Assembly: GCA_903900705.1 (NCBI GenBank)
Contig: CAIUOG010000119.1
Span: 1-64,000 of the forward strand
DNA: 64,000 nt
Origin: an uncultured Acidobacteriia bacterium
GTDB lineage: Bacteria > Acidobacteriota > Terriglobia > Bryobacterales > Bryobacteraceae
Direction of reading: 5' to 3'
Part shown: positions 16,161-18,240 of the stretch, in pieces
How positions within the stretch are numbered: position 1 is the first letter of the stretch
Layout: every line of letters begins with the position of its first letter
Program-made: the position numbers and the translations under genes
The notes under the pieces: generated by a model
What the model was told of the DNA's origin: nothing
What the model saw: the letters and a program-made list of their open reading frames with translations, nothing else
Databases searched by the model: none

Positions 16161-16201
16161 CCCTGGCGCGGAAATGCTAGTCTGTTCGTGAGGAGTTTTA
16201 T

Positions 16202-16744
16202 ATGAAGCTAGTCACAGTCGCCGCGCTCGCGTTTTCCGCCTGCGCGGGGCTCATGGCGCAGACTCAACCGGTGCAGCCCCTGAAGGTGGGGGATGTTGCG
16301 CCGAACTTTACGTTGAGCTCCACCATGGGCGGCAAAGTGACGCTGGCCGATTTCAAAGGCAAGAACCCGGTTGTTCTGGCGTTCTTCCCGGCCGCGTTTA
16401 CCGGTGGTTGAACGAAGGAATTCACAGCATACCAGGCTGGTATTGCAAAATTCGAAGGCAATGAAACAAAGGTTTTTGGCGTCAGCACGGACAACACTCC
16501 CTCGCAGAAAGTGTTTGCCGAGCAGCTCAAGCTGACTTTCCCGCTGCTCAGTGATTTTGGCACCCGCGAAATGGCGAAAGCCTACGGGGTGCTGCGTCCG
16601 GACGGCATGTGCAATCGCATCACGTATGTGGTGGATAAGGAAGGCAAGATCGCGTTTGTCGAAATAGGCAACACGGCGATTGATCCGACCGCCACAGACG
16701 AAGCCTGCAGCCGGCTGGCCCATCGGGCGGCAACAGCCAAATAG
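16202..16744 (+). CDS. selenocysteine-containing peroxiredoxin (in-frame TGA read as Sec)
   Basis: A 180-residue exported AhpC/TSA-family peroxiredoxin if the TGA at 16409-16411 is decoded. Residues 1-20 are a signal peptide ending LMAQ. The thioredoxin-fold motif VGDVAPNFTLSS is near 29. FFPAAFTGG is followed by the TGA (residue 70) and then TKEFTAY. In the family this position is the peroxidatic cysteine (FFP..FT..C-TKE). The frame continues without any other stop through GVSTDNTPSQKVFAEQ, FPLLSDF and NRITYVVDKEGKI to a normal C-terminus. A SECIS-like hairpin follows the TGA. GAGGAG precedes the ATG. The alternative is a nonsense-mutated gene, but the exact position and the hairpin argue for Sec. 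Confidence 0.9.
16418..16453 (+). promoter_or_regulatory. bacterial SECIS-like hairpin
   Basis: The upper stem pairs GCATACC (16427-16433) with GGTATTGC (16439-16446), with one bulged T at 16444 and the apical loop AGGCT. The lower stem pairs GAATT (16418-16422) with AATTC (16449-16453). The apical loop begins 22 nt after the TGA and has a G in its first two bases, both of which fit the known bacterial SECIS consensus. It lies inside the coding sequence, as bacterial SECIS elements do. Confidence 0.8.
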
Positions 16745-16745
16745 C

Positions 16746-16783
16746 AAAAAGGGGGACCGGCGGCAACGTCGGTCCCCCTTTTT
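16746..16783 (+). terminator. bidirectional terminator between the peroxiredoxin and proS
   Basis: Arms AAAAAGGGGGACCG (16746-16759) and CGGTCCCCCTTTTT (16770-16783) are perfect complements around a 10-nt loop. The A- and T-runs at each end allow use from both strands, which fits the two convergent genes. Confidence 0.93.
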
Positions 16784-16797
16784 AATCCCGTCCGTTC

Positions 16798-18240
16798 TTA
16801 GTAAGACTTGGCGATGACAACGCGCCGGTCCACTTCCTCGCCGGTCACGATGCATTTGCCCGCGCCGTCGTACTCGTCCACCAGCGGAATATTGCGAACG
16901 GTCGCCTTGAATTCCTTCAGGCGCGCGTCGCAAATCGGGTCGTCCTTCACGTGGGCCATGACGAACTTTCCACCGCCTTTTTCGGCGGTCACTTCGCGCA
17001 GAATCTCTTCCACTTCGCCGAGAGAATTGGCCACCACGGTATTGGCCTGGAGCCGCGCTTTGGCGGCGTTGTAGAGGTCTTTCTGCATGGTGTCGAGCAC
17101 AGTCGCGAACTTCACGCCCACTTCGCTTTGCGAAATGATTTCCTTCGTCCCCGTGTCGCGCCGCTTCAGCACAATGTTGTTGGAGGCGAGGTCGCGCGGA
17201 CCCAGTTCCAGCACCACCGGCACGCCGCGCCGTTCCCAGTGGAAGAACTTCGCGCCGGGCGACTGCCCTTCGCGATCATCGACCTTCGCGCCCAGTTCTT
17301 TCGCGATGCGATGCGCGGCTTCGAGCACCGGACCCTTCTCTTCTTCCTTGCGGTAAATCGGCACGAGAACTGCCTTGGTGGGAGCAAGTTTCGGGGGCAG
17401 CACGAGCCCCTTGTTATCGGAATGGCTCATGATCAGGCCGCCGATGAGGCGCGTGCTCACACCCCAGCTGGTCTGCCAGACATGTTCCAGCTGGCCATCC
17501 TTGTTCTGGAACTGCACGTCGAAGGCTTTGCCGAAGTTCTGGCCGAGGTCATGGCTGGTACCGGCCTGCAGCGCGAGGCCGTTCTGCATCATGGCTTCGA
17601 TGGAGTAGCTCCGCAGCGCGCCGGCGAACTTCTCCGCCCGCGACTTTACGCCCTTGATCACGGGCATCGCCATGATGTCTTCCGCCACCTCGGCGTAGAC
17701 GTCCAGAATGCGGAGCACTTCCTCCACCGCTTCCTGGTGATTCGAGTGCGCGGTGTGGCCTTCCTGCCAGAGGAATTCCGTGGTCCGCAGGAACATGCGG
17801 GTGCGGAGTTCCCAGCGCACCACGTTGGCCCACTGGTTGTAGAGCAGCGGGAGATCGCGCCAGCTCTGAATCCACTTCGCGAAGAAATGCCCCACGATGG
17901 TCTCGGAAGTGGGCCGGATGACATAGGGCTCTTCCAGTTCCTTGCCGCCCGCCACCGTCACCACAGCCAGTTCCGGCGAGAAGCCTTCCACATGCTCGGC
18001 TTCCTTTTTGAGGAAGCTTTCCGGAATCAGCAGAGGGAAGTAAACGTTCTGGTGGCCCAACGCCTTAAAACGTCCGTCGAGTTCGCGCTGCAGATTTTCC
18101 CAGACCGCGTAGCCGTTGGCCTTGATGACCATGCAGCCCTTGACGATCTCGGCGGGTTCCGCCATGTCTCCCTGCAGGACGACGTCCTGATACCATGCCG
18201 CGAAATCCTTCTCGCGGGGTGTGATTGGTGATTCTGCCAT
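16798..18240 (-). CDS. proS: prolyl-tRNA synthetase (short, archaeal/eukaryal-type)
   Basis: A 480-residue class II aminoacyl-tRNA synthetase that charges tRNA-Pro in the cytoplasm. Motif 2 region ([24 protein letters not shown]) is near 140, preceded by the [10 protein letters not shown] substrate loop near 104. Motif 3 ([17 protein letters not shown]) is near 266. An anticodon-binding domain follows. The protein ends in KSY, as ProS type 3 does. It lacks the INS editing insertion of the long bacterial form, which agrees with its length. It is divergent from hemD. Confidence 0.97.

Follow-up and report, generated by a model that had tools for sequence, protein, structure and literature searches.

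A gene predicted to encode an exported, AhpE-like peroxiredoxin with selenocysteine as its peroxidatic residue in an uncultured member of the Bryobacteraceae

Introduction

According to the accessible text of two papers (PMC9312934, PMC13188914), peroxiredoxins that carry selenocysteine (Sec) in a PxxxTxxU motif are an established selenoprotein family, which bears out a remark in the first-pass annotation of the locus described here that such enzymes are known from several bacteria. In the accessible part of PMC1794560, 12 Sec-peroxiredoxins are listed, Acidobacteria are credited with three selenoprotein families and four selenoproteins, Cys-to-Sec events are reported for the peroxiredoxins, and oxygen is suggested to disfavour Sec. 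The accessible text on deep-Sep gives three known selenoprotein genes in one acidobacterium (PMC12013277), and that of PMC8945050 describes AhpE as a one-Cys enzyme that is reduced through mycothiol or mycoredoxin. In the literature accessible outside subscription papers and supplements, where a description may exist, we found none of an exported, an AhpE-like or an acidobacterial Sec-peroxiredoxin.

Here we describe a gene within a 64,000-nucleotide stretch of DNA (the window) from an uncultured Acidobacteriia bacterium. We consider, with a probability of roughly 0.85, that it encodes an exported AhpE-like peroxiredoxin with Sec as the peroxidatic residue.

Results

Gene layout and reading frame

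The gene lies on contig C119 of a 6.1-Mb genome that is 99.87% complete (Table 1). The start codon is ATG 16202-16204, behind a Shine-Dalgarno-like element read from the sequence, and the frame is unbroken except for a single in-frame TGA at codon 70, after which it continues for 110 more residues up to the stop TAG at 16742-16744. As is characteristic of selenoprotein genes, this TGA stands in place of a redox Cys: the stretch PAAFTGG-TGA-TKE has its TGA aligned with the peroxidatic Cys of Cys-peroxiredoxins. Both the placement of the TGA and the intact frame beyond it had been proposed from the first reading of the DNA, and both hold. The next ORF (16798-18240, minus strand) is convergent and presumably encodes proline-tRNA ligase; the stem-loop between the two genes is probably a two-way terminator shared by them, and a terminator scan did not pick it up, though folding showed the stem.

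Table 1. Positions of the features of the predicted Sec-peroxiredoxin locus in the window
Feature	Position	Strand	Basis
Shine-Dalgarno-like GAGGAG ahead of ATG	16190..16195	+	sequence
Predicted Sec-peroxiredoxin gene, 180 residues including Sec70	16202..16744	+	reading frame; Pfam AhpC-TSA 5e-35
Signal-peptide-like N-terminus MKLVTVAALAFSACAGLMA, likely cleavage LMA / Q	16202..16258	+	by eye and home-made rule
Active-site motif PAAFTGGU (PxxxTxxU)	16388..16411	+	sequence, alignment
Predicted Sec codon TGA, codon 70	16409..16411	+	sequence; aligned with TGC/TGT of Cys homologues
Whole hairpin including lower stem, for which SECIS support is weak	16418..16453	+	45-nt fold
Apical SECIS stem-loop AUACCA-GGC-UGGUAU	16429..16443	+	folds and family pairing test
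Arg139 codon	16616..16618	+	invariant in 17/17 rows
Cys169 codon, last helix, likely resolving Cys	16706..16708	+	conservation; helix from model
17-bp stem-loop between A and T runs, a likely bidirectional terminator	16746..16783	.	fold z -7.12

Protein family and active site

The read-through protein matches Pfam AhpC-TSA over residues 29-152 (120.6 bits against a cut-off of 26), and its matches to NCBIfam models all fall below their cut-offs. In an alignment of 17 rows, T67, U/C70 and R139 are invariant in every row, while Pro63, present in the window, is not found in all of them; we take Arg139 to be the conserved active-site Arg of peroxiredoxins. The protein thus combines an AhpC-TSA domain with a PxxxTxxC/U motif and the conserved Thr and Arg of a peroxiredoxin. 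The earlier label of AhpC/TSA peroxiredoxin is correct for the Pfam domain, but among solved structures the closest in sequence are those of AhpE rather than AhpC: the best match is Mycobacterium tuberculosis AhpE (3.3e-24), and the first five are all AhpE. In a Foldseek fold search, AhpE occupies ranks 2-6, after Bcp4 of Sulfolobus. In the AlphaFold model, built from the 17 rows (mean pLDDT 85.0, pTM 0.79), residue 70 falls close to where helix 68-85 begins, and Cys169 is in the last helix (162-179).

Read by eye, the position of Cys169 is Cys in 61 of the 64 TGA rows and in 15/15 Cys rows, mostly within ACSRL, and the rows lacking it are L122, L123 and L113_1274; a cruder scripted rule recovered it in 59 TGA rows and 13 Cys rows. 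Cys137 is not conserved in the 17-row alignment. In peroxiredoxins of the Prx5 type, a late helix of the same chain carries the resolving Cys, and Cys169 is probably a resolving Cys, to judge from its conservation. The closest relatives, in sequence as in fold, are those expected of the AhpE subfamily, but the protein does not have the single (1-Cys) active residue without a resolving Cys that marks AhpE. Because Cys169 is conserved and the 1-Cys pattern fails, the protein is here called AhpE-like and is not filed as AhpE.

It could be argued that the product is mainly a Sec-containing thiol:disulfide oxidoreductase or an envelope sensor rather than a peroxidase, since Pfam AhpC-TSA also includes peroxiredoxin-like thiol:disulfide oxidoreductases with Sec (PMC9312934, accessible text), the ResA and TlpA models match weakly, and no partner gene is common to all 11 neighbourhoods compared, in which a downstream ORF is common to L065, L066 and L067 only and upstream ORFs to L074 and L078. 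However, the active site reads PxxxTxxU and not UxxC or UxxU, the Thr and Arg of this site never vary in the alignment, and the structures closest in sequence are those of AhpE peroxidases, which together make such a role improbable.

N-terminus and predicted export

A simple home-made rule finds a signal-like N-terminus in 56 of the 64 TGA rows and 11 of the 15 Cys rows; the rows that pass have a positively charged start followed by a hydrophobic stretch, with an AxA-like site in 55/56 TGA and 11/11 Cys rows, and some rows fail because the contig is cut or the start is uncertain. From the shape of the N-terminus alone, the protein seems to work outside the cytoplasm.

The opposite view, in which the Sec-peroxiredoxin is cytoplasmic or remains anchored in the inner membrane through an N-terminus that is not cleaved, draws on rows that lack a signal-like start (L113_1274, L114_317, L116, L122 and L123) and on export being predicted by a home-made rule. 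Against it stands the frequency of the charged start and hydrophobic stretch, nearly always with the AxA-like site, in both TGA and Cys rows, and we give this view little credence.

Two other genomes carry TGA-bearing peroxiredoxin genes in adjacent pairs (L113, G117:C60; L114, G103:C11), and one member of each pair lacks the signal-like N-terminus, as if there were cytoplasm and envelope versions. The second gene of L113 has an in-frame TAG just ahead of the C-terminal ACS motif, which continues in frame; this TAG may represent decay, an error or a shortened protein. Outside the Acidobacteriota, a Candidatus Binatia MAG (L085) encodes a more distantly related TGA peroxiredoxin that has a signal-like N-terminus and no Cys169 motif.

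The codon at the peroxidatic site of homologues

A match at 1e-25 is present in 91 of 121 genomes, the source genome included, and 10 of the 18 other genomes of the same genus have a close match listing a TGA. Of 102 matches, 72 were fetched and read, together with loci from named relatives, the nearest of which are Bryobacterales or Acidobacteriia MAGs. After removal of duplicates and of matches weaker than 1e-28, 82 distinct homologues were kept, in which the peroxidatic codon is TGA in 64, TGC in 15, TGT in three and TAA or TAG in none. In a draw of 297 genomes across the phylum, 32 (again counting the source genome) have a match at 1e-36; each of the 33 matches in them lists a TGA, the codon at the site itself being unread. 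As 265/297 genomes are without a match at this threshold, the spread over the phylum is patchy.

Two further candidates were rejected. UAG or UAA as a Sec codon was suggested by rows that list TAG or TAA alone, but among the loci read these rows have TGC or TGT at the site; and a TGA-bearing match on C142 has Cys at the active site, with the TGA elsewhere.

The hairpin downstream of the TGA

In a 45-nt fold, the apical stem pairs 16429-16434 with 16438-16443 around the loop GGC (16435-16437). The first-pass annotation had placed the start of the hairpin 7 nt after the TGA and its apical loop 22 nt downstream; the start at the 7th base (16418) is as claimed, but 23 bases lie between the TGA and the loop. 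It had also held that the geometry suits a bacterial SECIS element, and this is the case: the accessible part of PMC13188914 gives a loop of 3-9 nt, a stem of 4-16 bp, a distance of 16-37 nt after the UGA, a G in the first two loop places and an MFE of at most -7.5, and the window has a 3-nt loop starting GG, 6 bp, 23 nt and -7.7 kcal/mol. On its own, however, the hairpin of the window is not unusual and is weak evidence: its z against dinucleotide-shuffled sequences ranges from -0.59 to -1.47, synonymous shuffles give an equally good 45-nt fold in 34% of cases, and 61 of 5000 synonymous draws produce the full set of six apical pairs. Since shuffling a single hairpin is uninformative, pairing was tested over the whole family instead.

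The family test used six fixed apical pairs at offsets 20-34 from the TGA, taken from the fold of the window, a choice that favours the TGA group to some degree. In the 64 TGA genes, 359 of 384 pair cells are formed, against 221.8 +/- 6.1 expected (maximum 240) from 1000 synonymous redraws, and all six pairs are present in 49 genes, compared with a mean of 0.6 and a maximum of 5 in the redraws. When the partner strand is shifted by 1 to 4 bases, only 58 to 180 of the 384 cells remain. In contrast, the Cys genes form 39 of 90 cells, which is chance (38.9 +/- 3.2 by redraw), and only one of 15 has all six pairs. The apical stem over the 64 TGA genes is therefore far beyond chance. Consistent with the proposed reading, for which a disrupted frame without a hairpin in close relatives would have counted as contrary evidence, the close relatives retain the frame, the TGA and the hairpin.

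In addition, the Tyr codon of the stem and the codon three further covary among the 64 TGA genes (TAC.GGT in 49, TAT.GAT in 12, TTC.GGA in one), with two exceptions, L122 and L123. The change from GGT to GAT swaps Gly for Asp, which implies that RNA pairing appears to outweigh protein sequence at this place. Pairing is thus preserved by paired changes in TGA genes and is not kept in Cys genes. The independent changes behind this are few: when the hairpin region is masked before tree building, the TAC.GGT/TAT.GAT switch requires at least 4 changes and the Sec/Cys switch at least 10, counted without direction, on a tree with many poorly supported forks. Independent-pair tests go in the expected direction in 4.6 of 6 and 2.5 of 3 pairs, with none contrary, and fall short of significance (median p 0.0625 and 0.25). 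The Sec-versus-Cys contrast in folding free energy is only moderate, with a mean z against synonymous shuffles of -0.84 in 64 TGA genes and -0.17 in 18 Cys genes (p 0.013).

One Cys (TGC) version, L063 of G045, still forms all six apical pairs, and its hairpin looks like a remnant SECIS left by a Sec-to-Cys change. The covariation exceptions L122 (G109) and L123 (G094) are TGA peroxiredoxins without a signal-like N-terminus and without Cys169; they have no hairpin at the usual place, no SECIS was found in them, and on the tree they group, by long branches, with Actinobacterial Cys rows.

Selenocysteine machinery

The check on which the Sec reading had been made to depend, a search of the genome for selA, selB, selD and tRNA-Sec, found all of them. 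SelA is encoded (E 1.7e-118), SelB scores 349.8 bits (cut-off 242.25) and SelD 365.8 bits (cut-off 125), and two tRNA-Sec genes reach 68.9 and 64.6 bits against a gathering score of 47, both with the anticodon TCA. An Rfam search at the selA locus returned nothing. The selD gene (L027, G000:C152:8002-8910, minus strand) itself has an in-frame TGA (VKAAG-TGA-ASK), with a hairpin whose loop GUU lies 20 bases after it; selD is probably a second selenoprotein gene of this genome, and as such points to UGA recoding in it.

Bacterial tRNA-Sec has an 8-bp acceptor and a 5-bp T stem, and both are read from the fold of the two tRNAs. The tRNA genes (L003, G000:C100:257-347; L004, G000:C126:70431-70521) each adjoin a tRNA-Gln on the opposite strand, and they are 91.7% alike over a stretch of 265 columns, with an extra anticodon-stem mismatch in the second copy; the two copies may reflect a duplication or an assembly effect.

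In the wider set of 121 genomes, 102 have a SelB match at 1e-60 and 98 a tRNA-Sec match at 1e-8, a few of the latter weak and near 50 bits. The codon could be compared with the machinery in 66 genomes, 55 with a TGA copy and 11 counted as Cys-only, one of which (G113) has a second, unread match listing a TGA. SelB or tRNA-Sec is present in 53/55 TGA genomes and 7/11 Cys-only genomes (p 0.006), and SelB alone in 50/55 and 7/11 (p 0.036); the two together, in 43/55 and 6/11, do not separate the groups significantly (p 0.13). These p values are soft, because many genomes are incomplete and the statistics ignore kinship. Neither SelB nor tRNA-Sec was found in the Cys-only genomes G034, G065, G068 and G089, nor in the TGA genomes G024 and G075, which are 80% and 64% complete.

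A different way of reading the UGA, independent of SelB and Sec-tRNA, such as an opal suppressor inserting Cys or Ser, may be considered in view of the weaker anticodon stem in one of the two tRNA-Sec copies and of the allo-tRNA genes described from Acidobacteria in the accessible text of PMC7609411. Nevertheless, both tRNAs, with their TCA anticodon, exceed the tRNA-Sec gathering cut-off and have the stem lengths given above, SelA, SelB and SelD accompany them, and a suppressor would have no need of a hairpin that is kept only with the TGA; this reading is very unlikely. As for the TGA being a real stop, created by a recent nonsense mutation or an assembly error in a Cys-peroxiredoxin pseudogene, a lone TGA on one MAG contig might in principle be erroneous, but 64 of the 82 distinct homologues have TGA at this codon and continue in frame, and the hairpin accompanies TGA and not Cys, so that this negligible alternative is already refuted by the relatives, short of a shared error.

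Discussion

Based on these results, UGA recoding, the SECIS element and the peroxiredoxin family of the Sec-peroxiredoxin gene are well supported predictions from sequence and its conservation, and it very probably encodes a selenoprotein belonging to an established class of enzyme; the protein itself would be expected to contain selenium and to act as a peroxidase. From family membership and conservation, we infer that it is exported, that Cys169 takes part, and what kinds of donor and substrate it uses. SelA would make Sec-tRNA-Sec using selenophosphate from SelD, and SelB, bound to the hairpin that closely follows the UGA, would deliver it to this codon. The protein would then cross the inner membrane by means of its signal peptide, and the selenolate of Sec70 would attack peroxide outside the cytoplasm. 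The resulting selenenic acid would probably be resolved by Cys169 as an Se-S bond, which a periplasmic thiol donor may reduce.

A wider reading, to which we lean slightly, is that many Acidobacteriota maintain a selenium-based extracytoplasmic peroxide defence through a distinct subfamily, with an AhpE-like core, Sec, a resolving Cys in the last helix, an Se-S intermediate and a periplasmic thiol relay, and with repeated Sec/Cys switches, some in genomes in which no Sec machinery was found. If this is true, selenium supply would be tied to peroxide resistance outside the cytoplasm, and the naturally occurring Sec and Cys versions, whose SECIS is still present, reduced to a remnant or gone, would let one ask why Sec is kept or lost. 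Since ordinary annotation would cut the gene at the TGA, a predicted envelope enzyme that is frequent in this bacterial family is easily missed.

Comparison with known systems

What this locus adds to the known class is an AhpE-like form, predicted to be exported and bearing a Cys in its last helix, together with how often it occurs among Bryobacterales-like genomes and the clear covariation in the SECIS. The protein resembles the known bacterial Sec-peroxiredoxins, such as that of Eubacterium acidaminophilum (PF00578, TxxU; cited in PMC9312934 and PMC13188914), in having Sec in PxxxTxxU, an AhpC-TSA domain and a downstream SECIS, as far as the accessible descriptions go. Compared with those descriptions, it adds a signal-like N-terminus and the last-helix Cys; moreover, the known forms are filed under COG1225 (Bcp) in the accessible text of PMC9312934, whereas the window protein is closest to AhpE. 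With M. tuberculosis AhpE (Rv2238c; PDB 1xxu, 4x0x, 5id2) it shares 37% identity and a TM score of 0.79 (query) by Foldseek, but AhpE is a 1-Cys peroxiredoxin with Cys, and the window protein instead has a predicted Sec70, Cys169 and a signal-like N-terminus. The protein may also resemble the Prx5 type, if its last-helix Cys serves to resolve the active site once this is oxidised.
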